In this document: piece after piece, positions 4,026 through 28,342 of the stretch | Layout: each line of letters starts with the position of its first letter | Position numbering within the stretch: the stretch's first letter is position 1 | Origin: an uncultured Clostridia bacterium | GTDB taxonomy: Bacteria > Bacillota > Clostridia > Christensenellales > CAG-138 | Direction: 5' to 3' | DNA length: 32,343 nucleotides | Assembly: GCA_947166925.1 (NCBI GenBank) | Contig: CAMVGD010000018.1 | Span: 1-32,343 of the forward strand | Program-made: the position numbers and the translations under genes | The notes under the pieces: generated by a model | What the model saw: only the letters and a program-made list of their open reading frames with translations | The model's database searches: none | Told to the model about the DNA's origin: nothing

Positions 4026-4148
4026 CCATTTATTTCCGACGATTTTCACACAACTGTTGCGTTTTGTTCATAAATACGGCACACTTTGCTTGCATTCACG
4101 CGCTATACTGTCAGTATCCGAGAGTATACAGCAAAGGAGCGTCAGCCG

Positions 4149-5864
4149 ATGAAACGACCGATCCAACCGAAGCGCCTGCACGTTCTGTGCGCCTTTGCGG
4201 CAGTCTTTGCGCTGCTGCTGATCGGCTGCGCGGCGACGGCGGCGCATATTCCGGAGGCGGAGATCCCGGCGGACGACGTCGTCTTTGAAGCGCCCCCGAC
4301 GCCCGAACAGGCGCTTGTTACGCCCGATCCCGCGCTGATTACGCCGGAGCCGTCGCTTGCTCCGACGCCGACCCCCTCTCCTACCCCCACCCCCTCGCCC
4401 ACGCCGACGCCCTCGCGCCATCCGCTGCACGGCGACACGCTGCTGCCCGGCGACGAGGAGCCGATCGTTCTGGACGTCCAGATCCGGCTGATGGAGCTCT
4501 GCTACCTCGATTTCGAGCAGCCCGACGACGAATACTCCGACGGTACCGCGGACGCGATCCGCGCGTTTCAGGTGCGAAACGGACTGCACGCGAACGGTCT
4601 GTGCGACGCCGAGACCTTTGAAAAGCTGTTCTCCGACGACGCGCTGACCTACGCGATGGTGAAGGGCTCGACCGGCGACGACGTAGAGCTTGCGAAGGAG
4701 CGATTGATCGAGCTCGGCTACCTCGACGGCGTGCCGTTCGGCGAATACGACGAGCAGACCGAGGCCGCGGTGCGCAGGTTCCGGCAGAAAAACCACCTGA
4801 AGGACGACGTCATCATCGACAACGACGCGTTCGAGGTGCTGCTCGGCGAGGACACGGTCTCCAATTTCTACGCGATCGGCGATCACGACGAGATCATCGA
4901 AACGTATCAGCAGAGCCTGTACGCGCTCGGCTATCTCACGTACCTGCCGGACGGCGTGTTCGGCAGGCAGACGCAGAACGCGGTCCGGCGCTTCCAGGAG
5001 GAGAACGGTCTCGTGGTGGACGGCTGTCTCGGCAAAAGCACCGTCGACCTTCTGAAAAGCGGCGACGCCGCGCCGTTCGTCTTTACCGTCGGCGCGGAGG
5101 GCGCGGACGTGGAACGCATTCAGCAGCGGCTCGCGCATTTCGGATATCTTTCTTCGTCGCAGGTCACCGGCTATTACGGCGACAAGACCGCGGCGGCGGT
5201 CAAATCGTTCCAGAAGCGCAACAAGCTGAACGCCGACGGCGCGGTCGGCTTCGATACGATGCAGCTGCTTCTCAGCGAGGACGCGAAAGCGGCTCCTGCC
5301 ACGCCGAAGCCCGCTACGCCGAAGCCCACGAAGAAGCCTTCCGCAACAAAGACGCCCGGCGCGACGCAGAAGCCCGGCACGACACCGAAGCCGACAAAGA
5401 AGCCGACCGAAAAGCCGACCGAACGTCCCGACGAGGGCGATACCGGCTCCGGCGGCAGCACGATCGACTACGGAGACGGCGTCGAGGCGTTCATCCAAAC
5501 TGCCGAATCCCGGCTCGGCTGCAAATACGTGCGCGGCGCGAAGGGTCCCGACAAGTTCGACTGCTCCGGGTTCGTGTACTGGTGTCTCAACAAGTCCGGC
5601 GTAAAGCAAAGCTACATGACGAGCATCGCGTGGCGCAGCTGCTCGAAGTACAAGCGCATCACGTCGATGAGCGATCTCCGGCGCGGGGACGTGCTGGTGT
5701 TCAAGGGCAAGTCCATGAAGACCGGTCACGTCGGCATCTACCTCGGCGGCGGCAAAATGATCGACGCGTCCTCCTCGAAGGGCAAAGTCCGCATCACGGA
5801 CAACGTGCTGCACAGCACCTACTGGAAGGAGCACTTCCTGATGGCGTACCGCATCTGGGACTGA
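4149..5864 (+). CDS. Secreted/lipoprotein cell-wall hydrolase: about four PG_binding_1 repeats plus C-terminal NlpC/P60
   Basis: MKRPIQPKRLHVLCAFAAVFALLLIGCA signal; PTPTPSPTPTPSPTPTPS linker; repeats LGYLD...TEAAVRRFRQKN..., LGYLTYLPDGVFGRQTQNAVRRFQEENGLVVDG, FGYLSSSQVTGYYGDKTAAAVKSFQKRNKLNADGAVG; FDCSGFVYWCL...GHVGIYLGGGKMIDA catalytic motifs. Confidence 0.9.
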   Translation: MKRPIQPKRLHVLCAFAAVFALLLIGCAATAAHIPEAEIPADDVVFEAPPTPEQALVTPDPALITPEPSLAPTPTPSPTPTPSPTPTPSRHPLHGDTLLPGDEEPIVLDVQIRLMELCYLDFEQPDDEYSDGTADAIRAFQVRNGLHANGLCDAETFEKLFSDDALTYAMVKGSTGDDVELAKERLIELGYLDGVPFGEYDEQTEAAVRRFRQKNHLKDDVIIDNDAFEVLLGEDTVSNFYAIGDHDEIIETYQQSLYALGYLTYLPDGVFGRQTQNAVRRFQEENGLVVDGCLGKSTVDLLKSGDAAPFVFTVGAEGADVERIQQRLAHFGYLSSSQVTGYYGDKTAAAVKSFQKRNKLNADGAVGFDTMQLLLSEDAKAAPATPKPATPKPTKKPSATKTPGATQKPGTTPKPTKKPTEKPTERPDEGDTGSGGSTIDYGDGVEAFIQTAESRLGCKYVRGAKGPDKFDCSGFVYWCLNKSGVKQSYMTSIAWRSCSKYKRITSMSDLRRGDVLVFKGKSMKTGHVGIYLGGGKMIDASSSKGKVRITDNVLHSTYWKEHFLMAYRIWD

Positions 5865-5927: not shown

Positions 5928-5955
5928 TTGTCTTTCCGGAAAAATGTGGTATACT
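5928..5955 (+). promoter_or_regulatory. Promoter candidate TTGTCT-16-TATACT (extended TGG)
   Basis: Hexamers read directly; upstream of the small CDS at 5980. Confidence 0.5.
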
Positions 5956-5979
5956 GAAGAAAAAAGGAGAGATGCGCAT

Positions 5980-6174
5980 ATGCCGACGCTGAAGGACAAC
6001 TGGAAAAAGGTCGGGGACGACCTTACGGAGCTTGGGAAGGATCTCGGCAAGACCATTGTGAAGACCGTCAAATCCGGAGCGAAGGCCGTCTCGGACTGGG
6101 CGGACAAGGACGACGAACCGGCGGAAAAGCCGAAGGAAGACGTCGCGGCCGAGCCCGGGGAGCAAAAAGAATAA
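5980..6174 (+). CDS. Small amphipathic-helix protein of unknown function
   Basis: MPTLKDNWKKVGDDLTELGKDLGKTIVKTVKSGAKAVSDWADKDDEP; GGAGAG SD upstream; followed by a strong terminator. Confidence 0.75.
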   Translation: MPTLKDNWKKVGDDLTELGKDLGKTIVKTVKSGAKAVSDWADKDDEPAEKPKEDVAAEPGEQKE

Positions 6175-6184
6175 CCGAATAGCA

Positions 6185-6216
6185 AAAGCCGCTCGTTGGA
6201 GCGGCTTTGTTTTTTG
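6185..6216 (+). terminator. Rho-independent terminator
   Basis: Perfect 10-bp stem AAAGCCGCTC-GTTG-GAGCGGCTTT then GTTTTTTG. Confidence 0.85.
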
Positions 6217-6223
6217 TCGAAGC

Positions 6224-7108
6224 TTATGCGCCGGGGAACTGCTGCATGAGCTTTTTGTAATCGTCCGCGCTGAGGCTCCAGAGGATCTCGCTGCGCAGCG
6301 TCAGATACTTCGGATCGGAACTGTCGTAAAGCCGTTTGCGTTCCTGCGGAGACATCCGGACGATCAGATTTGCGATCGTGCGGTAGTCCGACTTCGGCTT
6401 GTCCTTCCCCGCGTCCAGCAGCAGCGAAAGCATGGTCTCCTCCGCCTCCTCCGCCGCTCCGCTGCCCGAAGACGCGCCGGCGTGCCCGCCGCCCGAGCCG
6501 TACGCCGCGCCGGAGAGGAACGCCTTGTACAGCGCCTGCGCGGCGCTCATCGCCTGCTCGCGGGAACGATTGATCTGTTCCGCGTTGAATTCGTCGACTT
6601 CGATCTTCTTTTCCTGCTGCTCCTTCATCGCGTCAAAGAGATGTCCCGCAAGCTCGGAGGCATAGCTGCTTTCGAGTGTGCTGACGTCGCGCGCTTCGCC
6701 GCGGTACTGACGCTCCTTGACGTCCGAAAGATAGGTGCTGGTTCCCATTCCGCGCGACCACGCGTCCGCGTCCAGCTCGGCGTTGATCTGTTCCGTCCGC
6801 TCGCGGCGGTTCCGGATCGCCTGCTCGTACGCAGGTCGGAGCCAGTTTCGGATCGTTTCGGAGAGCACGCTCTCGTCCAGCGGCGTAAACTCCACCGTTT
6901 CGGGAATATAGTGACGCAGCATCGCCGAGAACAGCGCCTCGAACGACGGAATGTCCGGCGCCGTCCCGCCCGCTTGTCCTCCTCCGCCGCCGGACGAGTG
7001 TCCGGGGATCTGCGGTTTCTGCGGCTCCTGCGGCTTCGGCGGCTTCGGCGGCTTCGGCGTATCGATGTCGATCGGCGGCGTCAATGGTTTGATGGGTAGT
7101 TTGATCAT
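6224..7108 (-). CDS. Phage-module protein with Pro/Lys-rich N-terminus and helical body (possible virion-internal protein)
   Basis: MIKLPIKPLTPPIDIDTPKPPKPPKPQEPQKPQIPGHSSGGGGGQAGG, then a long helical region; terminal gene of the cassette; start re-assigned from ORF M15. Confidence 0.55.
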   Translation of the reverse strand: MIKLPIKPLTPPIDIDTPKPPKPPKPQEPQKPQIPGHSSGGGGGQAGGTAPDIPSFEALFSAMLRHYIPETVEFTPLDESVLSETIRNWLRPAYEQAIRNRRERTEQINAELDADAWSRGMGTSTYLSDVKERQYRGEARDVSTLESSYASELAGHLFDAMKEQQEKKIEVDEFNAEQINRSREQAMSAAQALYKAFLSGAAYGSGGGHAGASSGSGAAEEAEETMLSLLLDAGKDKPKSDYRTIANLIVRMSPQERKRLYDSSDPKYLTLRSEILWSLSADDYKKLMQQFPGA

Positions 7109-7112
7109 TCTC

Positions 7113-7310
7113 TTATTCTCCTTCCGTTTGTTCGGCCAATGCCGATTCAAGTTCCAGAAGCTTGTTGTACAAAAGCTCCAGATTCTGGTTCAGATTGTTT
7201 TCGTTCTGCGCAACGCCCGAATCATAGGCGTCCCGGTCGACGTTCGCGGACGGCAGGCGTCCGAGATAGACGGGAAACAGCGCCTGCATGCCGGTCGGTG
7301 TATATGCCAT
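7113..7310 (-). CDS. Small phage-module protein, unknown function
   Basis: MAYTPTGMQALFPVYLGRLPSANVDRDAYDSGVAQNENNLNQNLELLYNKLLELESAL; tightly packed between cassette genes. Confidence 0.6.
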   Translation of the reverse strand: MAYTPTGMQALFPVYLGRLPSANVDRDAYDSGVAQNENNLNQNLELLYNKLLELESALAEQTEGE

Positions 7311-7321
7311 GGCGCACCTCC

Positions 7322-8752
7322 TCAGCCCGGACGCTTCTGCTGATCAAACAGCAGCGTCACAGGCGCGTCGATCGTGAACGGCGCGCCGTTGACCGACGAG
7401 AACCGCAGCCGGAACACGCGCCCGACGCCGCGCAGCGGGATCTCCGTGACGCCGAGCGGAACGGAGGACAGCCGGATCTGCGTTTCGTACGTTCCGCCGT
7501 CGGACACGGCGCGTATGCCGATCCGTCCCTCGCCGCTTGCGGTGAGCCGCAGCAGCGTCTTGTTCGTATCCTTTCTGCCGAGATCCATGGCGGGCGTCGT
7601 CCACCACGCCTGGATGGGGTCGCCGTCGTAGCTTGTATTGTTGTCGAACGCGACGTACTTGCCCGCGCCGGTCAGCAGATACAGCGTACCGTGGACCGTG
7701 CAGAGATCGACGGCGGTGAAGCCGCTGCGCAGCATGAACCGATCGCGCAACACGTCGTACTCGATCAGCGTGTCGTTATACGGCGCGTCGTAGCGCATGC
7801 GGATCGCAAAGTACAGCGTGTCGTCGCAGGCGGCGGAGCGGATGCCGGAAAGGTTGGCGTTCTGCAGGATCGGATCGAGCGCGCGGAACGCTGCGCTTTT
7901 GCGCACGGTTTGTCCGTCATAGAAGCACAGCCCCGCCTCCGTCAGGAAGAACAGGCGGTCCGCATAGCGCACGCACGCGGTGTGCAGCGGCTGGCGGAAC
8001 GCCGCGTCGACCCGGATGATGCGATAGTTCCCGGGGCGGTCGCCCAGCAGCCGGTAGAGCGAATCGCGCTTGAAGATCAGGAGCTGATTCGACATGGCAA
8101 AGAGCCCTGTGATCGGGTCGTCGTCCACGCCGACGTCGACGTAGCCGCCGGATACGTTCTCGCTCGCTTCGTCACTGCGCCAGTCGTCGATCATTCTGCC
8201 GCCGCCGGGCGCTTTGCTCCAGTAGAGCCTTGCGGGCGCCTGCGGATCGCCCGCTGCAAAGAGTCTGCCGAAGTACAGCTCGACGTAGCTGATCGTATGA
8301 TACGATTCCTTCTGCTCCGTGCCGAACACGTCGACGGTGTTCGTTGCCGCGTCGAACGTGATCAGCGGCTCCTCGCCGCAGGCGATCAGCAGACGGTCCT
8401 CGGTGCCGATGCGCACCTTCAGAAAATCCATGCATTCACCGACGGCGGTGCGTTCAAACTGATACAGCGGCCGCCAGATCCCGGAAACCGCGTCGTAGTA
8501 ATACAGCATGTCCTGCGAAGCGGCAAGATACCGGTTCCCGCGCTCGGTGGCGTAAACGTACATCCGCTCGAACGGCGTGATGGCTTCAAGCGTCTCCGGC
8601 ATGACGCGGGAGAACCCGAAAGCCGTACGCAGCGCGCCGGACCGCGTGTCGACGTTGCAGGCATCCGGACTCATGTCGGGCTTTAAAAGCCCCTCCGAAA
8701 GGTCCATGCGCACGCTGCCGAACGAAGGCAGTGAAACGGTCTGATATGCCAT
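7322..8752 (-). CDS. Podovirus-like tail hub/stabilisation-type protein (beta-rich, propeller-like)
   Basis: LPSFGSVRMDLSEGLLKPDMSPDACNVDTRSGALRTAFGFSRV, repeated beta-blade-like stretches with DxxxGIWRPLYQF, GRLFAAGDPQAPARLYWSKA; position after the connector. Confidence 0.6.
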   Translation of the reverse strand: MAYQTVSLPSFGSVRMDLSEGLLKPDMSPDACNVDTRSGALRTAFGFSRVMPETLEAITPFERMYVYATERGNRYLAASQDMLYYYDAVSGIWRPLYQFERTAVGECMDFLKVRIGTEDRLLIACGEEPLITFDAATNTVDVFGTEQKESYHTISYVELYFGRLFAAGDPQAPARLYWSKAPGGGRMIDDWRSDEASENVSGGYVDVGVDDDPITGLFAMSNQLLIFKRDSLYRLLGDRPGNYRIIRVDAAFRQPLHTACVRYADRLFFLTEAGLCFYDGQTVRKSAAFRALDPILQNANLSGIRSAACDDTLYFAIRMRYDAPYNDTLIEYDVLRDRFMLRSGFTAVDLCTVHGTLYLLTGAGKYVAFDNNTSYDGDPIQAWWTTPAMDLGRKDTNKTLLRLTASGEGRIGIRAVSDGGTYETQIRLSSVPLGVTEIPLRGVGRVFRLRFSSVNGAPFTIDAPVTLLFDQQKRPG

Positions 8753-8764
8753 AGACGCCTCCTT

Positions 8765-9319
8765 TCAGTACCGGCAGGTGATCCTGTAATCGGTCGGTTC
8801 GTCGAGGTCGAGCTTCAGGCGGCGCTTGCGCGTTTCGTACAGCGACATCGCCGCGGACGCGCGGTTCAGTCCCTGCGCGTCGTTGACCATCGAGAACCGC
8901 CCGACCATGTACAGCACGATCAAGGGATGGCACGCCGCGGGCAGCTCGGGCTCGTCGCTGTCAAGGACGAGCGTTTTCGGCAGGTACCGATAGACGACGG
9001 TCATCGGACCGTCCTGCACCCCGGGCACTTTGAGCGTGTTCGTATCCGCGCCGAAGCAGAACGGGACGCGCATGCCGCTGCGCTCCGTGCCGAGCACCTT
9101 TGCCGCCGTATACGGCAGCGCCGTCAGATCGATCGCGCCGTTGACGAGCGGGAGCGTGTCGCGCCGCCAGGGACGGAAGGTCTCGTACAGATCGACCAGC
9201 GCCTCGTTCGCAAAGCGCAGCAGCTTCTCCTTCCACAGCGGCAGCGCCGCGGTATCCTCGGGATGCTCGAGCTCCGCGAGCGCGCTCTGAATGAGTTCAA
9301 GCACGGTCACGGCGATCAC
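8765..9319 (-). CDS. Head-tail connector/tail accessory factor-like protein (P22 gp4-type position)
   Basis: TVLELIQSALAELEHPEDTAALPLWKEKLLRFANEALVDLYETFRPWRRD; GTG start with GTGA overlap to the upstream gene. Confidence 0.6.
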   Translation of the reverse strand: MIAVTVLELIQSALAELEHPEDTAALPLWKEKLLRFANEALVDLYETFRPWRRDTLPLVNGAIDLTALPYTAAKVLGTERSGMRVPFCFGADTNTLKVPGVQDGPMTVVYRYLPKTLVLDSDEPELPAACHPLIVLYMVGRFSMVNDAQGLNRASAAMSLYETRKRRLKLDLDEPTDYRITCRY

Positions 9320-9576
9320 CCTAACTTTCTTCCGCCGGTCGCGGTAAACGCCTCGGCGGCGCGGGCGCCGTTTTGCAGCGTTCTGCGGCTTTCCTGCAGG
9401 ATCCGCGCGATGCGCTTCGGTACGGTCACGACCGTGTCGGTCGGGATCCGGAAGCTTACGCCGTTCAGCGCGCCCTCTAAAAAAGCGCCCGTGCCTTCGG
9501 AGGGAATGCAGACGGAAACGGTCGCTTCACGGTCGGTCCCGGTTTCTTTCGGTTCGGTTTTTGCCTTTGTATTCAT
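9316..9576 (-). CDS. Small phage-module protein, unknown
   Basis: 86 aa, MNTKAKTEPKETGTDREATVSVCIPSEGTGAFLEGALNGVSFRIPTDTVVTVPKRIARIL; between MCP and connector. Confidence 0.6.
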   Translation of the reverse strand: MNTKAKTEPKETGTDREATVSVCIPSEGTGAFLEGALNGVSFRIPTDTVVTVPKRIARILQESRRTLQNGARAAEAFTATGGRKLG

Positions 9577-9598
9577 CGTTCATGCTCCTTTCTTATGC

Positions 9599-9625
9599 CC
9601 GGGGGAGGGAAAACGCCTCCCCCGG
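9599..9625. other. Strong stem-loop immediately after the major capsid gene
   Basis: Perfect 10-bp stem CCGGGGGAGG-GAAAACG-CCTCCCCCGG, no T tract on the minus strand. Confidence 0.65.
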
Positions 9626-9634
9626 ATCGGTTCG

Positions 9635-10843
9635 TTACTCCGAAACCGCGTGCTCGATGCGCACGATCCAGAGCGGATTCAGGATCTTTGCGGCGTACGC
9701 GGCGACCTTTGCGCCGACGGTCGCGCGCTGATTCAGCGGATCGCCGCTGCCCTCGCTGCCGTGCGGCTTGATGATCGTCTCCATCGTGCCGGAGCCGTCG
9801 ACGTCGATGACGCCGTACGCGTCCGCACCGAAGACCAGCGTCGCGTGGACGTCGCGCTCACGATAGTTCGTCGTGATCGCGCCCGCGTCGTCCGTGTAGA
9901 CCGCGGCGTTCAGCGAATAGGTCACGTTCTCCGCGACCGTCAGCGTGTTGGTCGTCTCGTTGAAGCCGGTGATCGTGAGTTCCGCGCCCGCGATATACAC
10001 GAAGTTGCCGGGGGTGGACAGGTACTTCAGCTGTTCCGGGGTGGGCGCGTTGCGCAGCGGGATTGTGTTCGTGGTCGAGTTCGCCGACTGGCGCGTAAGA
10101 TTCCAGATCGTCTGGTGATAGACCTTCGCTTCGGTCGATTCCACGAAGACGACGCCGAACAGTCTGCCGATCTCGCCGGAGTAGATCTGCTCCGCGTTGC
10201 TGTACTTCGATACATCCTGCCAGAGCGGATCGTTCTGCAGATCGTAGGTCGCGTCCGGCGAACAGATGCACACGAAGTGCGGACGGCGAACGGAGCCGTC
10301 GATTGCGGTCGTGAACATGCGCGCCTTGTTCTTCTTCAGCGTGCGGACGGCCTTGCGGATCTCGTCGACGGTCAGTACGCAGTCGCCGTCGAGCTCGTTG
10401 CGGTCCTCCTTGCCATTTGCGTACTGCACGTTGGTCGTCGCGCACATCGCGTCGCGGGTGACCCATTCGATCACGGTGCCGAGCTGTTCGCCCAAAAGCT
10501 CCGCGGAATCCGCGAGCACCTCGTCGTAGGCGGTGAGGTCGAGCAGATCGCTTACCTCGACGTAAGCGCCGTACTGGCTGACCTCCGCCTCGACGTCGGA
10601 CTGCGAAAGGGACTGCCCTTCCGGCGTGACGCCCTCGACGAGCGTCAGCGCGTCGACGTCGGGCGTAAAGAGGTTGTACTTGCGGAATTCCACGCGCTTG
10701 CCGCCGTGCCGCGGGATGCTGCGCTTCTGACCGAAGCTCGCGTGCACAAGACGCGTCTTTGCGGTCTCCAGAAGCTTTTTGTCATAGAACTGCTTGTTGA
10801 AATATGCGCTGTTTGCAGTGTTCAGAGTGGTATTGATAGCCAT
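9635..10843 (-). CDS. Major capsid protein, N4-gp56 family
   Basis: MAINTTLNTANSAYFNKQFYDKKLLETAKTRLVHASFGQKRSIPRHGGKRVEFRKYNLF...LTLVEGVTPEGQSLSQSDVEAEVSQYGAYVEVSDLLDLTAYDEVLADSAELLGEQ. Confidence 0.88.
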   Translation of the reverse strand: MAINTTLNTANSAYFNKQFYDKKLLETAKTRLVHASFGQKRSIPRHGGKRVEFRKYNLFTPDVDALTLVEGVTPEGQSLSQSDVEAEVSQYGAYVEVSDLLDLTAYDEVLADSAELLGEQLGTVIEWVTRDAMCATTNVQYANGKEDRNELDGDCVLTVDEIRKAVRTLKKNKARMFTTAIDGSVRRPHFVCICSPDATYDLQNDPLWQDVSKYSNAEQIYSGEIGRLFGVVFVESTEAKVYHQTIWNLTRQSANSTTNTIPLRNAPTPEQLKYLSTPGNFVYIAGAELTITGFNETTNTLTVAENVTYSLNAAVYTDDAGAITTNYRERDVHATLVFGADAYGVIDVDGSGTMETIIKPHGSEGSGDPLNQRATVGAKVAAYAAKILNPLWIVRIEHAVSE

Positions 10844-10855
10844 GGGTTCCTCCTT

Positions 10856-11278
10856 TTAGATATGGACTCGTTTGCCGTTCTGCGCGGCGTTTCTGTACTG
10901 TTTCTCAAGCGTCGAAAACGCTTCTCTCGACATGGACATGTAGTCCGGCGCGGCTGCGACCGCGCGGTCCGTACGCTGGGACTTGGGCAGCGCCTTTCGG
11001 CTTCTTGCCTGCTCGCTCATGCGGGTCCTGACGTTGTTCTCCGCATCCTCTGCGCGCTTTTCCGCTGCGTAGATCCGCACCGCGGCCTTCGGCTCGAATT
11101 CCTGCAGAAGCTCCGCAAACGCGCGGTCCTGCACCGCCTCCGAAAGCTCGAAGCCCTCGGGCAGCTCGCCGTTTCGCTCCATTTCGACCAGCGCGTTCGC
11201 CGCCTCGATGAACGGGTTCTCCGCTTCGGTCTCCGCCGGTTCCGTGACGGCGGGCGTCTCTTTCTTTTTGAAGATCAT
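10856..11278 (-). CDS. Scaffold-like protein
   Basis: 140 aa, acidic/helical, FIEAANALVEMERNGELPEGFELSEAVQDRAFAELLQEFEPKAAVRIYAAEKRAEDAE; lies between portal and MCP. Confidence 0.6.
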   Translation of the reverse strand: MIFKKKETPAVTEPAETEAENPFIEAANALVEMERNGELPEGFELSEAVQDRAFAELLQEFEPKAAVRIYAAEKRAEDAENNVRTRMSEQARSRKALPKSQRTDRAVAAAPDYMSMSREAFSTLEKQYRNAAQNGKRVHI

Positions 11279-12885
11279 ACTTTACCTCCGAATCGTTTTT
11301 GTTTCATTCGTTCGGGAAACAGCGGCTCCTCCGCCGTCTCCTTCATTTGCTTCAGGACCTGCTCCTTGCCCTCAAAGGTCATGAGCGGGATCGCCTGCTC
11401 ACGGGTGATCGCACCCATGGACAGAAGGTTCATCATGAGCTCGTTCTGCGCCGCGCTCGCGAAGCGGCTGCGCTTGACCGCCTTGATCGAGATCAGGAAC
11501 TCGACCGGCAGCTCCACGCCGCCCGGCGCGCTTTTCAGAAGCACCTCGCTGTCAAAGAATACCTCTCTGGGCTCGCCGTCGACGGTGATCGTCACCGGAC
11601 GCAGGAAGCAGTTGAACTCGCGTTCCGTTTCGATCTCGAGCCGTACCGCTTCGCGGAACGCCTCGTGCAGCTGATCGGAAGCCTGCCGCGCGCGCTTCGT
11701 GCTCATCTCCTGCAGCGCTTCGATCGCCCGCGCCGCGGTTACGCCGCCCGGCGCCGCCCCGCGGGAGGAGTCGTTCGCGCCGCTCTCCTCCTTGATGTCC
11801 TCGCGGATGGAGCGGATGTAGGAAAGCAGGTAGTCCGGCAGCGGCGCGGTGGACATCCACGTCACGCCGTTCAGGCTTTCGCCGGTGTGCACGTCCTTGG
11901 ACCAGTCGCGAAGGTCGTCCGGATCGAAGCCGGACGCGTCGGTGACCAGCAGCTTGTTTCTTGACGCAAGGAACGCGTTCTTCAGCACAAGCTGATCGAG
12001 CTTGTCCGCGTAAAGCTGCTGCGTGCCGAACAGATCGACCACGCCGAAGCCGAGGGCGCTTCCCTTCCGCGGGTAGAGCGTCGTCAATACGAACGGGTAT
12101 TGACCGTGTGCAAAATAGCCCTCCGGCTTGATGTCGCGGCTGTCCTCGAGCACGACGCCGTTGCAGAGAAGCGCCATGTGGACGCGGTACGCATCCTCCT
12201 TCGCGTCGTATTCACGCCGCCAGTATTCGATCAGCAGGCAGGCGTTCTTCGGATCCGGCGAAAGGATCTCGTCGGTGATCAGCTCCGCCGTATCGATCGG
12301 GCGGGATTCGATCAGCGGACAAAGGTCGGGATAGTGTGCTTCGATCCACGCCTTCGGACGCAGCGCGAGCTTGAAAACCGCCCGTCCGTCCTGGAGATCG
12401 GTGACCAGCGGATCGATGAGGATGCTTCGGATATCGACGTGACGGATGAACGCGCCGCCTAAGCCTCCGTTTTCCGCGCTGTCGTAGCCCACCTCCTGTA
12501 CGCACCAGCCGCCGACCAGAAGATCGTGGATCATGCGCCGGTACTCGACGGGATACGCCGCCGCGTCGTGGTTTCTGCGGACGACGGCGTCGATCACCTG
12601 CGCGGCGTAGGCGTCCGCCGCGCTCTCGGGCGTGATGACCGCTTCGGGCGTCAGGTCTGCAAGGTCTGCGGACACGTTTTCGATCGTGGACTGCAGGATC
12701 GGCGTGACCGGCCGCGGCTCGTTCGGATCGGTCACGGGCACGTCGTACCAATGCTCCCCGCGATACATCCGCTCATTGTGCTCCTGCCGCCGCCACTCGT
12801 TCGCAAACGCGTTGCGGAACTCGTTGAACAGCGCAGTCGCTTCTTCGGCTAACCGCCGTTTGGTTTCGGATTGTCTTGGTTTCAT
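11275..12885 (-). CDS. Portal protein (P22-like)
   Basis: NEWRRQEHNERMYRGEHWYDVPV...RPVTPILQSTIENVSADL...IHDLLVGGWCVQEVGYD...FIRHVDIRSILIDP...SGANDSSRGAAPGGVTAARAIEALQEMSTKRARQASDQLHEAFREAVRLEIE. Confidence 0.85.
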   Translation of the reverse strand: MKPRQSETKRRLAEEATALFNEFRNAFANEWRRQEHNERMYRGEHWYDVPVTDPNEPRPVTPILQSTIENVSADLADLTPEAVITPESAADAYAAQVIDAVVRRNHDAAAYPVEYRRMIHDLLVGGWCVQEVGYDSAENGGLGGAFIRHVDIRSILIDPLVTDLQDGRAVFKLALRPKAWIEAHYPDLCPLIESRPIDTAELITDEILSPDPKNACLLIEYWRREYDAKEDAYRVHMALLCNGVVLEDSRDIKPEGYFAHGQYPFVLTTLYPRKGSALGFGVVDLFGTQQLYADKLDQLVLKNAFLASRNKLLVTDASGFDPDDLRDWSKDVHTGESLNGVTWMSTAPLPDYLLSYIRSIREDIKEESGANDSSRGAAPGGVTAARAIEALQEMSTKRARQASDQLHEAFREAVRLEIETEREFNCFLRPVTITVDGEPREVFFDSEVLLKSAPGGVELPVEFLISIKAVKRSRFASAAQNELMMNLLSMGAITREQAIPLMTFEGKEQVLKQMKETAEEPLFPERMKQKRFGGKV

Positions 12886-12937
12886 GGTTATTCCTTTCTG
12901 GTTGATTTTTCATGTGCCGCAGGCGCAATTCATCGAC

Positions 12938-14269
12938 TCACAGCCCCCGGAAGCCCGGATCCGCCGTCGGCGTGCCCGCAAGCGGATCGTAGCGGTACAG
13001 GCGCTTCCGCTTTTCCGGCGCGGCGGGCCGCGGACGGCTCATCAGCCCGTAGCGCAGCGCTTCCGGCGCATGGTCCTCGCAGTTGGAGGCGACGTCCTCG
13101 CAGTCGTGCTCGTCGAAGGTCAGCGTCGGCAGCGTGCGGATGAGATTGCGGCAGGTCTCGAAGATCCGCAGCTCCGGCGCGCCGTCGTCTCTTTTGGCAA
13201 GCGCTTCGCGAACGCGCTGCCAGCCCGGGACACGGGCGTTGTCCGCCGCGAGAAGCGGCACGCCGTTTTTTGCGAACACCTCCGCAATGCTCTCCCCCTC
13301 GGCGCCCTTGAGACCGCGCTGCTGCCAGGCGTCGGGCGAGGCGACGGTATAGGTGATCCGTTCGCCTTCGGAGAGCGTTTTTACCCGCCTTGCGATCTCG
13401 CTCGAAAGCGTCTTCCTTAGGTACAGCTCCCGGTATACGTACAGCCCTCCCTCCGGCGCAACGGCAAACCACAGCACGCAGCACGGATCGTTGTAGCCCC
13501 AGTCCATAGCGCGAAAGCGCTTCCACTCCATCGGGAGCCTCGTCGGCTGCACGACGTGCAGGCTGCGGTCAAATTCCGGAAAGTACTGTCCTTCGAGCAC
13601 GTCCCAGTTGCCGTCCAGGTACGCTTTCCGGAGGTGCTCCGGCAGGTTTTCGAGCGTTTCGAGATACTGCGGATTCGTGCGGAGCAGGATCGGGTTGTCG
13701 GTGACCCGCGCCGGGATAAACACGTAATCCGCCGCCTTTTCGCTGTTGCGGTAGCTTCGGTCGATGAACAGGCGCTTGACCCATGCGTGCCCGACGCCGC
13801 CGGGGTTGCAGGTGTAATACATGCGCGGGGAGAAGTCGGTCCGCACCGAGCGGTTGCAGGTGGTCAGAAACTGCATCTGCGCCTCCGTAAAGTGCGTCGC
13901 CTCCTCGAGCCCGATCACGTCGTACTCCTGTCCCTGATACTGAAACACGTCCGCCTCGCGGTCACAGTAGCCGAGCTTGATGCGGCTGCCATTCGGGAAC
14001 TGAAACGCGCGCTGCGTCGCCTGATACGTGACCGCGCCGGCAAGCTCTCTCTGCAGCGGCAGCACATGGTTCTCGCTGAGCTCCGGCAGCGTCCGGCGCA
14101 AAAGCAGGAGCTTTAGCCCCGCATAACGAAAGGCAAGGAGCACAAACTTCCGGCGCATCGCCCACGACTTGCCGCCGCCGCGCGCGCCGCCGTAGGCGAT
14201 GTGCCGCGCATCCGCAAGGAAGAACTGTTCCTGCTTCGGGTTCGGCGTACCCTCTAAATGCAGGATCAT
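12938..14269 (-). CDS. Terminase large subunit
   Basis: MILHLEGTPNPKQEQFFLADARHIAYGGARGGGKSWAMRRK (Walker A), EYDVIGLEEATHF (Walker B), RFRAMDWGYNDPCCVLW (nuclease); start re-assigned; ATGA overlap with the small subunit. Confidence 0.93.
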   Translation of the reverse strand: MILHLEGTPNPKQEQFFLADARHIAYGGARGGGKSWAMRRKFVLLAFRYAGLKLLLLRRTLPELSENHVLPLQRELAGAVTYQATQRAFQFPNGSRIKLGYCDREADVFQYQGQEYDVIGLEEATHFTEAQMQFLTTCNRSVRTDFSPRMYYTCNPGGVGHAWVKRLFIDRSYRNSEKAADYVFIPARVTDNPILLRTNPQYLETLENLPEHLRKAYLDGNWDVLEGQYFPEFDRSLHVVQPTRLPMEWKRFRAMDWGYNDPCCVLWFAVAPEGGLYVYRELYLRKTLSSEIARRVKTLSEGERITYTVASPDAWQQRGLKGAEGESIAEVFAKNGVPLLAADNARVPGWQRVREALAKRDDGAPELRIFETCRNLIRTLPTLTFDEHDCEDVASNCEDHAPEALRYGLMSRPRPAAPEKRKRLYRYDPLAGTPTADPGFRGL

Positions 14270-14658
14270 TTGGAATACCTCCCCGCCGCGTCGTCCAGAA
14301 CGATCTGAAGCGTGCCGTCCTTCTGATCCGCCATCCCGGAAAGCCCCATAGCGCGCAGCGCCTCCAGCGCCGACTGGTAATTGAGCTCGCCGAGCAGCGT
14401 CCGCTCGAGCGTGTAGGCGGCGACCCGCAGAACAGCGTCGCGAAGGATGGCGTCCTCTTTGGAACCGCCCCCGGTGTGAAACGCCCGAAGGACCTCCTCC
14501 GGCGTCAGCCGCACCGCCCTCGCAAGACCGAACAGGGTGTAGGGGATCTGTCTCTCCTCCGTTCCGCCGTTCTTCAGCTCGCGGCGCTCGCGCGTCGCGT
14601 CGCAGGCTGCAAAATACGCCCCGATCGCGCTGTTCATTCGTTCCGTTTTTCTGCTCAT
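14266..14658 (-). CDS. Terminase small subunit
   Basis: MSRKTERMNSAIGAYFAACDATRERRELKNGGTEERQIPYTLFGLARAVRLTPEEVLRAFHTGGGSKEDAILRDAVLRVAAYTLERTLLGELNYQSALEALRAMGL; GGAGG SD before ATG 14658. Confidence 0.75.
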   Translation of the reverse strand: MSRKTERMNSAIGAYFAACDATRERRELKNGGTEERQIPYTLFGLARAVRLTPEEVLRAFHTGGGSKEDAILRDAVLRVAAYTLERTLLGELNYQSALEALRAMGLSGMADQKDGTLQIVLDDAAGRYSK

Positions 14659-14770
14659 GGTTGCCTCCTTGCCTTTCGTCGGTATGAGCATAGCATAGAA
14701 ACTTCGGACATTTTTCCCGGAGTTTTGCCATATTTCAAACCCGCCGCCTTGCTGAAAAATCCCGGGGCAT

Positions 14771-14841: not shown

Positions 14842-15315
14842 TCAGAAGCCGATACCGTTCAGGTACCACTTGTCCGCCCTTTTCACGCATTTCAGTACGG
14901 CCGTGGTCTCCTTTCTTTCCTCTCCCGTTCCGTATCCGATCACGGCCGTTACGTGGCAGCGGTCCTGATCCTCGTTGAATTCATAAGCCTTCGCTTTGAT
15001 CGACAGCGAAGAAAAGAACGCGTCCGCTTTCACGCCGAGCTCCCCGAAGTTGTCCAGAAGATCGACGATCCGGTCGAGTACGCCGGACGTGTCCTCAATG
15101 CCCAGCGTATTCATCACGAGCAGGATCGGCTCGCCGACGCTCGGATTGAAGCATTCGACCATTGCCCTGACGTCCAGATTGTGGCATGCGGACTCGAACG
15201 GCGCAAGCAGCTCGCGCTTGATCTTGCTCTTTTCTGTCGCTTCGCATCCGAACATGGACGCCGCGATCAGAAGCGCCAGCAGAATGACCGCAATGCGTCT
15301 TGCCGTTTTTTTCAT
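14842..15315 (-). CDS. Predicted lipoprotein
   Basis: MKKTARRIAVILLALLIAASMFGCEATEKSKIK lipobox; AGGAGG SD upstream; start re-assigned from ORF M17. Confidence 0.78.
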   Translation of the reverse strand: MKKTARRIAVILLALLIAASMFGCEATEKSKIKRELLAPFESACHNLDVRAMVECFNPSVGEPILLVMNTLGIEDTSGVLDRIVDLLDNFGELGVKADAFFSSLSIKAKAYEFNEDQDRCHVTAVIGYGTGEERKETTAVLKCVKRADKWYLNGIGF

Positions 15316-15352
15316 ACGGATTATCCTCCTTTTATCACAGTTCTGCACAGAA

Positions 15353-15389
15353 ACGCCCCGCATATCCGGGATCCGGGTATGCGGAGCGT
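15353..15389. other. Long imperfect stem-loop between the 1520-aa gene and the lipoprotein gene
   Basis: ACGCCCCGCATATCCGG / CCGGGTATGCGGAGCGT, 17-bp arms with two non-Watson-Crick positions. Confidence 0.6.
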
Positions 15390-15396
15390 CGTTTGG

Positions 15397-18300
15397 TTAC
15401 AGCGGTTGCTTCGGATCGGAGAACGGCGTTTTCTTTCCGTAGATGGAGCCGTTTCTGCTGAGTCCGTAGACCTCGAGGTATTTTGTAAAGCCTCTCCCGT
15501 ATTCGTTATCCATTTTCGGCGTGTTCATTTCTTCGCGCTTTGCGGTCTCCGTCTCGCCGATGAGATACGCATACTGGATTTCGCTCCACATCGCCATGCC
15601 TTCCGTGATCTCCCGCATGTTCTTTTTGCCGTACTTTTCTTCGAGCTGGGCATAGTCCCAATGCAGGTACTGCCAGATATGCGTCAGCTCGTGCGCCATG
15701 ATCATGACCGCCATAAGCCGCGGCGTTCCGTTCGTCATATAAACCAGGTGTTCCTTTTTATTCTTCGTTGCAAAGCCAAGCACCTCGGTGTAATTCTTTC
15801 CGCCGCCCTTCTTCCAAAGGCGCTGCAGCTTCCGGTAATTGACCATCTCGACTCGCATCGGCGTGTCGAGTGTAATGCCGTAGAACAGATGCAGATTGCG
15901 GATCACCTCATGGAACAGCGCAACGAATTCATCCTGTGTTTTGATGGACGTCTTGCCGCAGTTCAGACAGCGTTCTCTGCCGTCGGACAGACGTTCATAT
16001 TCGCTGCCGATCAGCTTCGTGCCGCAGAAGCAGCAACGGCGCACGCCCGTTTGTTCCGGCGCGCTGCCTTCCAGAATCGACGCGATGTCCTTGCCTTTGC
16101 GCGCCTGCTTCAGCGAGCTGTTTCCGACGCCGAGGCTCTGCAGGAATTCGATGGTCCCTTCGACGTCGATGCACTTCGGCATCTCCGTACCGCCGTACAG
16201 AAGATAGTAACGCTCGTGATAGGGCAGCCTTGTAAAGTCGGTTCCGCCTTTGACGACCGATTCCGGTTCAAAGGTCAAGGTATCGTCGTCCGTTCCGAGA
16301 TCGACTTCTTCCTGTGTGCCGGTCGGCGCGGTCTCGCCCGCGCTGCGTCCGTTTATACGCATGCTCACATGCGGATCGGATCCTGCGTCATCCGCCCCGT
16401 CGACAGGTTGTTCGCCGTCCTCCGCAGCAGGAGCGTCGGCGGATTGTTCGCCATTCTCCGCTGCAGACGTGTCGGCGGATTCTGCGCCGTCCTCAACAGC
16501 AGTCGTGTCGGTGGGTTCTGCGCCGTCCTCAACAGCAGTCGTGTCGGTGGATTCTGCGCCGTCCTCGGTCGATTCGGACCCGTTCTGCGTTTCGGTCGTT
16601 CCGGTTTCACCCGGTTCCGTTCCCTCCGCGGGTCCGTTCTCCGGAGACGTCGGCGCTTCCGTGCTCTGCCCGCTGCCGGTATCCGGCTCGCCGGGCTCCT
16701 CCGCCTTGTTCTTCTTCCGCTTGCGGAACAGCTTCTTAAAGAAGTTCCCGATCGCGCTGAAGATCTTTTTGAAGAATGCGCCGATCGCGCCGAAGATCTT
16801 CTTGAAGAACGCGCCGATCCTGCTGAAGAATCCGCGTTTCTTTTTCGGTTCCTCGGGCTCCTCTCCGTTGTCTTCGGGGAACTCCGGCGGCAGCTTCACC
16901 GGCGGATGGAGACTGTTTTCCATCGCTTCCAGATGCCATTCGAGATAATCGCACATGATCGAAAGGATGCGGTTGAGATTTCTTCTGACCGCTTCCAGCA
17001 GACCGATATCCAGCTGGCTGTCCTCGATGATGTAGATGCACTTCTTTTCTTCGCCGATATCCAGAGAGTACGTGAGCGGGATTTCGACTTCTCCCGGGAT
17101 TACGGCGCAGATATAATCCTGATTCTCCGCAAACAGCGTGCGGAAGATCTCGTTGAGCAGGTCCGCGACCGTGATCTGGACCTCCCGGGTCACGCTGTCC
17201 GGCAGATCGATGCGAAGCACCTGCTTGCTGCAGTAGATGCGGTCTGGGATCCCGTTGATGGTCACACGGCGGCCGTGTTCAAAGTCGTTGTAGTTCTGCA
17301 GCTCCCAATAGCCGGTCGTTTGCACGCGCAGATCGGCAAACTGCTTCACGATGCTGATCTCGCCGATCTTGCGGTTGTCGCCCATCATATCGGAATCGCG
17401 GAGCGACGACAGCGTGTATTTGCGTTCCTGCCGGTAGGAGGGTCTGCCGGTGATATGGTCCGCCGCTCTGCGGACAAGGACCTGACCCTGCGCCGTGACG
17501 CGCAGCATCTCGTAGTACTTGCCGTCGAACGTGAAGAACTGACCGGGCAGATATTTCTGGAATACGTGTCCCAGAAGCTCCGTGCCGAGATACAGCGTCT
17601 CACCGTTCTCGTCTTCTGCAATGTATTCCGCGCTTCTGAGCCCGCCGATCACCGCCGCGCCGAACGCCTTGTCCGTAATACTGTACCGGTTCTCCATGCG
17701 GCCGAGCTCGACCGAGTATCTGCGGCGCAGCTCGATGACGTCTGCCGAGAAGGTCTGCTCCCCGCCGTTTGCCCGGACGACAAGCAGTTCTCCGCCTTCC
17801 TCATCGACGGGGATCTCGCCCGACGCGTAGCATGCGCAGAGCTCATGCCACAGACTTCTGACCGGCGTTTCCGTATCCGCGCCGATCAGGAGCAGCTCGC
17901 GCTGCAGCTCTTCCTCCGTGACATACCCGCCGCACATGCGGAAGCAGACGCGCATCACCACGTTGCGCTTCGTATGCGCGTAATCGGCGACGATGTACGG
18001 GATCGCTTTCGGATCGGTGTCGAAGATGCAGTCGTTGTCCGCCATGTAGTCCTTCAGCAGGTATTCGGATGCAATGATGTTGATGAATCCCTGTTTTCTG
18101 GCTCTGGTGGAGAACGTCCGGCGGATCTCGAACATGTTGTGCGATTCGTCTTCAACGGTCATATAATGATCGTCGCTGACCTTTGCGCTCCACATGTTCG
18201 GAGAGGTGCGGAAATACTCGTCGATGCCCTCCTGCACCGCGTTGCGTTCCGCATAGGTTAGCAGCGGATAATAGTACTGCTGCGCGATCCAGCGGATATC

Positions 18301-19959
18301 CCGCACGGGGAACACGTCTCCGCCGTACCAGTCCGCAAACCGTACGCCGTTCTTGACGCCGGCAAAGGACAGCTCCGTTCCGAAGCCGATGTACCGCGAA
18401 ACGCCCTTCAGCATTCTGTGCTGCAGATGCGTCTCGCCCGGCGTCCAGCACATATAGGAGGAAATGCCCGAATGCCGTTTGGTTGCCGACACCTCGGTCA
18501 GATTTGTCATCAGGATGTGCGAAAGCGCGTCGACCAGACCGTCGCAGTTCTTATCCGTCGAGCAGTAGGTGATCTGCTGTCCGCGCATCCGGCAGTAGCG
18601 GACGATGGAATTGAGTCCGACCTGCGCCGTCGTAACGAGCCGCGACGGTTCGATGAGGACCACAAACGATACCTCCGCAAAGAATTCGCGGTTCGCTTCG
18701 TGCAGTTTGAGATCGTGTACGCTGGAGCGCGTGATGACGCCGACGTCAACGTCCTGCGGCGTCTCCTTCAGCACGCCGACGTTCCACAGCGACGGAACGT
18801 TGGTCACCGCAGTCAGTCCGTCCTCGCACCATTGCACGATATCGGCTTCCGTCTTATGTCTGCCGAGAACGATCAGCACCTTTCCGTGCTTCATCAGCGC
18901 TCTGTTCATCGGATAGAACATGTACGGGATCAGATCGTAATAGAACGGGTTGTTGAACAGGATGCTCTTTCCCTCCAGAAGATCCCTTCCGGAGGCGAGA
19001 TAGCTCTGATCGATCTCCATGCCGGCCGTGGCTTTACGATGCATGAAGATGCCGTAAGCCTCCAGCATACGGTCGTCGCCGTTCTCGTAATCGGAAAGCA
19101 GCTCGTCGGCAGACTGCACGCGTTCGCTTCCGCCCGAAACAAGGGTGTCGTCGATCGACAGCTTATCGCCGAACAGGCGCTTCAGCTCGGGGCGCAGAAT
19201 GCGGAAGTCGATGCCCTCGCCCTCCTGCGTTTCTTCCTTTTCATACTCGATCTTGCTCTCGGACCGCGTGAGACCGTCCATGACAAAGCAGATCTCGCCG
19301 ATCAGAATGATCCCGAATACCGGATAAAACGCGCCGGTCAGCCATCCTTTCTGATAGATCATGAATACGCCGGCAACCGCAAGGCAGGAGATCACAAGCG
19401 CCGCGATATACGCCGTTTTCAGGAAGGTGCGCGCCTGTCCGATATGATTCTTGACAAACATCTCGCCCGAGCCCGGATCCTTTTCATAGAACAGCCCGGC
19501 GGCGCGTTCATACAGCTTGTTGCCGCTCTTGCAGATCGGCTTCATGATCGTGATAAGAATCCGCTTCAGGATGATATGCGCGAGCATGATCAGCGCGTTT
19601 GCAAGATAGAACACCGCATAGAAGATGTTGGCGTTTTGGATCGCGTTTGCAAGACCGGCCGACAGCCCGTCGATCCAGGACGCAACAGACGTCAGCCGTC
19701 CGTACAGGATCGTCCTCAGCCATTCCGCCAGCGAATGGATCCATGTCGGGATTGCCCGGATCAGACTCTCCACCAGCGCCGTGATCTTGTCCATCAGAAT
19801 CAGCAGTACGATGCAATAGATCAGCGTGAGGACAGGCATGAAAATCTGCCTGGATCGTTCCGGCTTCTTGAGATTCACCTTCATATTCCACAGCGCAAAC
19901 AGCGCGAACGGTAATATGGGAAGGAGAAATCTGACAGCTGTTAGAATGTTTTTAATCAT
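15397..19959 (-). CDS. 1520-aa multidomain membrane protein: N-terminal TM region, degenerate helicase/ATPase-like core, amphipathic 11-mer repeats, acidic repeats, zinc ribbon, DA1-like HExxH metallopeptidase
   Basis: MIKNILTAVRFLLPILPFALFALW TM helices; FVVLIEPSRL; RIGAFFKKIFGAIGAFFKKIFSAIGNFFKKLFRK; DGAEPTDTTAVE repeats; CCFCGTKLIGSEYERLSDGRERCLNCGK; AHELTHIWQYLHWDYAQLEEKYGKKNMREITEGMAMWSEIQYAYLIGE. Confidence 0.7.
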   Translation of the reverse strand: MIKNILTAVRFLLPILPFALFALWNMKVNLKKPERSRQIFMPVLTLIYCIVLLILMDKITALVESLIRAIPTWIHSLAEWLRTILYGRLTSVASWIDGLSAGLANAIQNANIFYAVFYLANALIMLAHIILKRILITIMKPICKSGNKLYERAAGLFYEKDPGSGEMFVKNHIGQARTFLKTAYIAALVISCLAVAGVFMIYQKGWLTGAFYPVFGIILIGEICFVMDGLTRSESKIEYEKEETQEGEGIDFRILRPELKRLFGDKLSIDDTLVSGGSERVQSADELLSDYENGDDRMLEAYGIFMHRKATAGMEIDQSYLASGRDLLEGKSILFNNPFYYDLIPYMFYPMNRALMKHGKVLIVLGRHKTEADIVQWCEDGLTAVTNVPSLWNVGVLKETPQDVDVGVITRSSVHDLKLHEANREFFAEVSFVVLIEPSRLVTTAQVGLNSIVRYCRMRGQQITYCSTDKNCDGLVDALSHILMTNLTEVSATKRHSGISSYMCWTPGETHLQHRMLKGVSRYIGFGTELSFAGVKNGVRFADWYGGDVFPVRDIRWIAQQYYYPLLTYAERNAVQEGIDEYFRTSPNMWSAKVSDDHYMTVEDESHNMFEIRRTFSTRARKQGFINIIASEYLLKDYMADNDCIFDTDPKAIPYIVADYAHTKRNVVMRVCFRMCGGYVTEEELQRELLLIGADTETPVRSLWHELCACYASGEIPVDEEGGELLVVRANGGEQTFSADVIELRRRYSVELGRMENRYSITDKAFGAAVIGGLRSAEYIAEDENGETLYLGTELLGHVFQKYLPGQFFTFDGKYYEMLRVTAQGQVLVRRAADHITGRPSYRQERKYTLSSLRDSDMMGDNRKIGEISIVKQFADLRVQTTGYWELQNYNDFEHGRRVTINGIPDRIYCSKQVLRIDLPDSVTREVQITVADLLNEIFRTLFAENQDYICAVIPGEVEIPLTYSLDIGEEKKCIYIIEDSQLDIGLLEAVRRNLNRILSIMCDYLEWHLEAMENSLHPPVKLPPEFPEDNGEEPEEPKKKRGFFSRIGAFFKKIFGAIGAFFKKIFSAIGNFFKKLFRKRKKNKAEEPGEPDTGSGQSTEAPTSPENGPAEGTEPGETGTTETQNGSESTEDGAESTDTTAVEDGAEPTDTTAVEDGAESADTSAAENGEQSADAPAAEDGEQPVDGADDAGSDPHVSMRINGRSAGETAPTGTQEEVDLGTDDDTLTFEPESVVKGGTDFTRLPYHERYYLLYGGTEMPKCIDVEGTIEFLQSLGVGNSSLKQARKGKDIASILEGSAPEQTGVRRCCFCGTKLIGSEYERLSDGRERCLNCGKTSIKTQDEFVALFHEVIRNLHLFYGITLDTPMRVEMVNYRKLQRLWKKGGGKNYTEVLGFATKNKKEHLVYMTNGTPRLMAVMIMAHELTHIWQYLHWDYAQLEEKYGKKNMREITEGMAMWSEIQYAYLIGETETAKREEMNTPKMDNEYGRGFTKYLEVYGLSRNGSIYGKKTPFSDPKQPL
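16409..16588. repeat. 36-bp coding tandem repeat (about 5 copies), encoding 12-aa acidic units
   Basis: GCGCCGTCCTCAACAGCAGTCGTGTCGGTGGGTTCT then a near-identical copy, flanked by more diverged copies. Confidence 0.75.
16722..16828. repeat. 33-bp coding tandem repeat (3 copies) encoding IG(A/N)FFKK(I/L)F amphipathic 11-mers
   Basis: IGAFFKKIFGA-IGAFFKKIFSA-IGNFFKKLFRK. Confidence 0.75.
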
Positions 19960-22009: not shown

Positions 22010-22025
22010 AACACCACCTCCGCTC

Positions 22026-22050
22026 CCCCGGTCCGTTGAGCGGACCGGGG
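22026..22050. other. Perfect 10-bp intra-operonic stem-loop just upstream of an SD
   Basis: CCCCGGTCCG-TTGAG-CGGACCGGGG; ends about 5 nt before the GGAGG of the TTG-start gene. Confidence 0.65.
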
Positions 22051-22081
22051 ATATACAGCGTTTGAATTGCACCGGTGCGGC

Positions 22082-25699: not shown

Positions 25700-25734
25700 G
25701 CTTCTCCTCCGATTTTTTATAAAGTATCCTGTGT

Positions 25735-28266: not shown

Positions 28267-28342
28267 AAAAAACCTCTGAATGATATATTTGCTGATGCCG
28301 CAGCGGCCGAGCCCCAACCGCCTTTCATATATATGCATTCAT

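Follow-up and report, generated by a model that had tools for sequence, protein, structure and literature searches.

The ten phage-derived genes at positions 6224-14658 (minus strand) are probably the capsid-and-packaging locus of an ancient, host-owned system that derives from a podovirus and resembles gene transfer agents (GTAs). They lie in a window, the whole stretch of DNA that was analysed, of 32,343 bp on one contig (C18) of a 2.53-Mb assembly in 145 contigs. Comparison of related genomes establishes, as far as sequences alone can do so, that the ten genes have been maintained in the host lineage by vertical descent, intact, in unchanged order and under purifying selection. A separate operon preserves lysis genes from the same phage lineage. 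The cassette is filed here as a GTA-like element, and packaging and transfer are unproven.

The ten genes of the cassette

The cassette encodes small and large terminase subunits (TerS, TerL), a portal, a scaffold-like protein, the major capsid protein (MCP), an adaptor and a tail nozzle; its other three products are small or unknown (Table 1). The original prediction of ten tightly packed phage genes is confirmed, and all ORFs are intact. The many 4-nt overlaps described there are reduced to two of exactly that length (portal/scaffold and 86-aa protein/adaptor); the overlap of TerS and TerL is 10 nt.

Table 1. Genes of the cassette in order of their reading direction.
Gene product	Position	Strand	Basis of assignment
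TerS, small terminase subunit	14266..14658	-	PF16677 GP3_package, 29.5 bits
TerL, large terminase (ATPase and nuclease)	12938..14275	-	phrog_979 4e-52; PF03237/PF04466
Portal, P22/SU10-like	11275..12885	-	phrog_156 9e-49; PF16510 3.7e-21; PF23899
Scaffold-like, 140 aa	10856..11278	-	position between portal and MCP; tblastn homology across loci
MCP, N4-gp56 type	9635..10843	-	NCBIfam TIGR04387 5.4e-80; phrog_1357 5e-71; PF25209
Small protein, 86 aa	9316..9576	-	kept between MCP and adaptor in 31/31 loci; no family
Head-tail adaptor, SU10 type	8765..9319	-	PF24175 6e-11
Tail nozzle (short-tail tube), 476 aa	7322..8752	-	AlphaFold2 and Foldseek; phrog_3287
Small protein, 65 aa	7113..7310	-	homologue at same position in 31/31 loci; no known family
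Last gene, 308 aa	6224..~7108	-	Pro/Lys-rich disordered N-terminus and long helical region

The start of TerS was set at MSRKT, which has an AAGGAGG ribosome-binding site; a longer ORF reaches position 14691. The protein aligns with TerS of related phages but lacks about 10 residues behind the HTH-like segment. That this shortening could reflect a lost pac recognition is no more than a suggestion from the alignment. In TerL the Walker A, Walker B and coupling motifs and the three nuclease motifs are kept in 33/33 relatives, apart from conservative substitutions.

The scaffold-like protein yielded no HMM match. It has about half the length of its counterpart in related phages and shows tblastn homology to the protein at the phage scaffold position; its function is thus inferred, being assigned by position. 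Sequence searches against the PDB returned weak capsid matches only. The 86-aa protein might serve as a head decoration or in head completion.

The product of the gene at 7322-8752 had been described as tail hub-like. It is indeed a tail protein, but by its fold a nozzle rather than a hub: the AlphaFold2 model (pLDDT 91.7) has its best Foldseek matches among the podovirus tail nozzles of Pa223, VP1, P22 (gp10), SU10 and T7 (gp12). Portal, adaptor and nozzle, all of P22/SU10/T7 type, make up a full short-tail conduit of the podovirus kind, and no tape measure is present. The ORF of the last gene can start at 7150, and the relatives begin at MIK, i.e. at about 7108. An alignment of 22 homologues, one of them from the phage contig L113, contains an invariant DAxxRGMG motif. 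The predicted model is helical, with no structural match by fold and no known family, and it is possible, by inference only, that the protein is ejected or located at the tail tip.

Surroundings of the cassette in the window

To the left of the cassette lie genes for a peptidoglycan-binding/NlpC-P60 hydrolase (4086-5864, plus strand) and a 76-aa protein (5944-6174, plus strand), which are convergent with it; a small lipoprotein-like gene (14842-15363, minus strand) adjoins on the right. The bounding terminators proposed earlier do exist as hairpins but do not simply frame the cassette. The hairpin at 14801-14777 terminates the transcript of the gene upstream, and the one at 6185-6208 carries its T-tract on the plus strand and is therefore assigned to the convergent gene 5944-6174 and not clearly to the cassette. 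Across the window the number of terminator matches (9) is not in excess of that in shuffled sequences (10.2).

As originally stated, the window contains no integrase, replication or lysis gene. Pfam searches with the other genes revealed host functions (a Mem_trans transporter, a DHHA1 protein, CobS, CobU, a CobT-type phosphoribosyltransferase and a His-phosphatase) and no phage structural, integration or replication family among the remaining ones. The GC3 of the cassette equals that of the neighbouring host and housekeeping genes.

A different GC3, lower than that of its neighbours, is found for the adjacent four-gene operon at 15397-28338 (minus strand). It encodes a 1520-aa protein with an HExxH-like AHELTHIW motif, a 706-aa membrane protein, a 1205-aa Tubulin_2 (PF13809) protein and, finally, a membrane-anchored protein of 867 aa, which by eye resembles a vWA protein and has no Pfam match above the cut-off. 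Comparison with defence systems gave no match worth naming. The operon was considered as a part of the particle system and rejected because of its GC3 and its absence beside the cassettes of relatives, including those at the same place in L039 and L041. It is probably a later insertion.

Conservation across relatives

A scan of public genomes revealed 63 cassette-related loci, 31 of which comprise all ten genes in the same order and on the same strand (median span 8.3 kb). Since the same ten genes recur in this order in 31 further loci, the gene set is far beyond chance, and the gene order is kept without flanking prophage genes, as the original prediction required of a domesticated locus. Its second expectation, a common chromosomal position, is met only in part. 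L039 agrees with the window on both flanks, that of the cob genes and that of nlpC/dhha1, and L035, L036, L041 and L043 agree with it on one of them, but other relatives have different host neighbours. In dozens of loci host genes directly adjoin the cassette on both sides.

The distribution is near-universal and not patchy. An MCP match was obtained in 19 of the 22 genomes of the same genus; the three without one are only 59-82% complete. Of 14 other genera in the family, 12 have a match as well. TerL is present in 58 of the 65 family genomes with a completeness of 85% or more, and among the high-quality ones in 45 of 50; about 10% of the good genomes are without it. It is nearly always a single copy, and some family genomes (G029) contain a second, phage-like copy of TerL or MCP.

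Vertical descent and selection

The distances of five concatenated cassette proteins are strongly correlated with those of RpoB (Mantel r 0.905, p 1e-4, n=18), the RpoB sequences having been chosen by motif. The clades starred in the RpoB tree reappear in the tree of the five cassette proteins. For the MCP alone the correlation with RpoB is 0.75 when 26 genomes are compared and 0.78 when only the genus is considered.

The median dN/dS values are 0.115 for the portal, 0.147 for TerL and 0.235 for the MCP, and the highest value is 0.42 (86-aa protein), so that the whole range (0.12-0.42) lies far below 1; the neighbouring genes cobT and dhha1 reach 0.21 and 0.19. The dS of the cassette genes is mostly 0.4-0.8, which matches cobT, cobS, dhha1 and nlpC. 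All cassette genes are open in the relatives compared, without frameshifts. Taken together, the conservation, the congruence with RpoB, dS, dN/dS, GC3 and the TerL motifs exclude a decayed remnant and render repeated prophage insertion very unlikely.

Mobility genes and the separate lysis operon

Of 24 genomes searched, 22 have no tyrosine integrase on the contig of the cassette; in the other two one lies about 80 and 120 kb away. Serine recombinases were searched for in the window only. Since the genomes were assembled from metagenomes, the cassette might in principle adjoin an integrase that was placed on another contig, and tyrosine integrases do occur elsewhere in these genomes.

The original prediction had named lysis genes just outside the window, along with att repeats, as evidence against a domesticated locus. 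Such genes do exist, but they form an operon of their own, far from the cassette and surrounded by host genes, an arrangement shared with other GTAs. A profile built from loci of sister genera detected an NlpC/P60-SH3 endolysin in nearly every genome of the genus. In the loci whose surroundings were read, the next two genes encode a 69-aa XhlA-type holin partner (phrog_689/937) and a holin-like protein of 63 aa, and the operon sits among genes for a SpoVT-like regulator, a pseudouridine synthase and a hydrolase. In the source genome it is located on another contig (C144). The phage contig L113 has a homologous endolysin-XhlA pair; that the operon serves the particle is inferred.

In sister genera a BppU_N baseplate protein, endolysin and holin directly follow the MCP block, and TerL-portal can be kilobases away from it or on other contigs. 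Thus the genes of one podovirus lineage have been scattered in different ways from host to host, as the layouts of the genus and its sister genera show. Searches of the source genome with the BppU_N Pfam model and a custom profile yielded no receptor-binding or baseplate gene. Within the genus only G012 and G020 have BppU_N matches, which may belong to prophages and were not closely examined.

Two further genes were noted in this context. A phage-type NlpC/P60 and PG_binding endolysin-like gene (L151:9771-10475, G000:C21) is kept across the genus. As a second endolysin of the system it was rejected, for it adjoins two D-Ala-D-Ala carboxypeptidase genes; it is probably a host gene, i.e. a domesticated wall hydrolase. 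In several members of the genus a fast-evolving winged-helix-like protein of 160-196 aa is encoded between the lysis operon and the pseudouridine synthase gene (L152:8407-8889, L156:9937-10527), and it is a possible regulator of lysis.

Phage relatives and origin

IMG/VR includes phage-like relatives (L105, L107-L113) on contigs that reach about 40 kb; one of them, L113, encodes an integrase and also has an anti-restriction gene. These contigs share homologous TerS, TerL (about 61-66% identity), portal, MCP, nozzle and endolysin/XhlA with the bacterial loci; portal and scaffold are longer in the phages. In the TerL tree five phage sequences group together as one clade (97/88), separate from every domesticated row. 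The branch joining the window-type loci is weak (82/68), and the topology would fit a single domestication with this reservation. An insert in the capsid protein was considered as a mark of domestication and rejected, since it also occurs in the phage-like L105 and L107. The MCPs of the Bacillus Pagevirus members Pascal and Page and of Paenibacillus phage API480 are about 35% identical to that of the cassette, which by this measure places the named phages at a distance.

Other related contigs in IMG/VR look like host chromosome entered as virus. The IMG/VR entry IMGVR_UViG_2799112622_000001 (L099) and ONMC01000031.1 (L048) agree in length and match coordinates. It appears that ONMC01000031.1, a bacterial metagenome contig with the cassette, has been filed as a virus in IMG/VR. 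Relatives of TerL, portal or MCP are also encoded by unannotated human-faecal contigs named 'Bacteriophage sp.' (MT837590, MT836218 and MT836150; L277-L279); these contigs may represent GTA-like loci of bacterial chromosomes and not phages.

Related capsid loci with other gene orders occur in other clostridial families (L257-L263, f40; L264-L272, from a class-level profile search). An example is the order scaffold, MCP, small protein, 258-aa protein, nozzle-like protein and 417-aa protein without TerL or portal nearby. Such loci recur in nine genomes of one genus and possibly represent further GTA-like systems.

Comparison with known systems

GTAs of the RcGTA type from Alphaproteobacteria are vertically inherited, have intact structural and packaging genes at several loci and make use of lysis genes elsewhere in the genome. 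The cassette resembles them in vertical descent, intact genes, split loci and lysis genes located elsewhere in the host genome. RcGTA itself is a siphovirus-like cluster with an HK97-type protease and a tape measure, and its capsid family differs from that of the cassette; no homology between the two would be expected. PBSX of Bacillus subtilis is a long contiguous prophage with a myovirus-type tail. In this Gram-positive host it is a host-fixed, phage-derived particle that packages host DNA, and it kills without DNA injection (PMC12946183).

The closest published systems are FpGTA I and II of Faecalibacterium (Borodovich et al. 2026, PMC12946183). They consist of a podovirus-type operon of ten ORFs (TerS, TerL, portal, scaffold, MCP and tail parts) without replication genes and, at a distance, another operon that contains structural and lysis genes; they occur across a genus of gut clostridia, and their particles measure about 40 nm and contain about 9 kb of host DNA (PMC12946183). 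The window's genome has the same layout, a ten-ORF packaging/capsid operon and a distant lysis operon; the likeness is one of gene content and arrangement. Its cassette operon is shorter (about 8.4 kb in contrast to 10.5 kb) and is family-wide, co-diverging with the family, whereas FpGTA is spread across one genus. Unlike FpGTA, the lysis operon lacks baseplate and fibre genes, and particle data are absent.

GTA-like random packaging was also reported for Christensenellaceae (3/25 events, genera HGM11616 and QANA01), with an operon described only for Faecalibacterium (PMC12946183). Because several relatives of the cassette are titled Christensenella or Christensenellaceae, it is a natural candidate for this packaging; its carriage in HGM11616 and QANA01 is undetermined. 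Literature searches revealed no other description of such a locus.

Alternative explanations

The main rival is a phage head and tail domesticated for another use, such as PBSX-like killing, interference with phages or a decoy that releases DNA, without productive transfer. The evidence for domestication fits this equally well, no receptor-binding gene was found in the source genome, and a PBSX-like role was raised for FpGTA by its own authors (PMC12946183). However, the TerL nuclease and ATPase motifs, TerS and the portal are conserved, which counts against a DNA-free device because such a device needs none of them, and the complete adaptor-nozzle conduit is maintained under selection. We regard this use as unlikely, although it deserves more weight than the other rivals.

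An ordinary temperate podovirus prophage, with its integration, regulation and lysis genes located elsewhere or missed, could be suspected from the integrase-bearing phage contig and from the second phage-like copies in some genomes. A temperate prophage is expected to have adjacent integrase, repressor and replication genes and a mobile distribution, none of which applies; the near-universal single copy, the host-congruent tree, the host genes on both sides and the scarcity of tyrosine integrases on the same contigs largely refute this explanation, and we consider it very improbable. Still less credible is the decayed prophage, the main alternative of the original prediction. The lack of integration and replication genes would suit a remnant, but ten ordered genes in 31 loci, their open frames, invariant catalytic motifs and low dN/dS rule it out. 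Equally little can be said for a satellite that packages its own small genome, which had also been suggested. Capsid-forming PICIs are compact and have their own capsid and terminase, as does the cassette, but the integrase, the replication module and the mobile, patchy distribution of such elements are missing. No alpA-like regulator adjoins the cassette, inheritance is vertical with a fixed single copy, and sister genera have the parts at separate loci.

The GTA-like reading, which the original prediction had put forward, is supported by synteny, single-copy distribution, low dN/dS and congruence with the host tree. Those features of a GTA that sequence data can show are all present: phage-derived structural and packaging genes without adjoining replication or integration genes, vertical inheritance with fixation in the lineage, purifying selection on all structural genes together with functional terminase motifs, and genes split over host loci with a host-encoded lysis module, whose link to the particle is inferred. 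Under host control, for which no regulator of the cassette could be identified, the cell would make small short-tailed particles with the portal-adaptor-nozzle conduit. TerL, working with a TerS whose DNA-binding end has diverged, would load them with chromosomal DNA, and the endolysin/holin operon would free them by lysing a subpopulation of cells.

Implications

We propose only tentatively, with doubt slightly outweighing conviction, that the cassette is the operon behind the packaging of random fragments in Christensenellaceae, i.e. a podovirus-type GTA that the ancestor of the family (about 20 genera) acquired from a phage lineage with temperate members in circulation to this day, and that has been co-inherited ever since. 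It would then be among the oldest and broadest GTAs outside the Alphaproteobacteria. Few lineages are documented to have GTAs, and it was only in 2026 that one of podovirus type was first reported. Public virus collections can list such loci as phages, which inflates prophage counts, and domesticated loci beside their phage relatives constitute a natural experiment. The random DNA packaging already seen in Christensenellaceae would obtain a named operon as its explanation, and, if the GTA-like reading is true, host-owned DNA-packaging particles would be ancient and common in the clostridia of gut and rumen communities.
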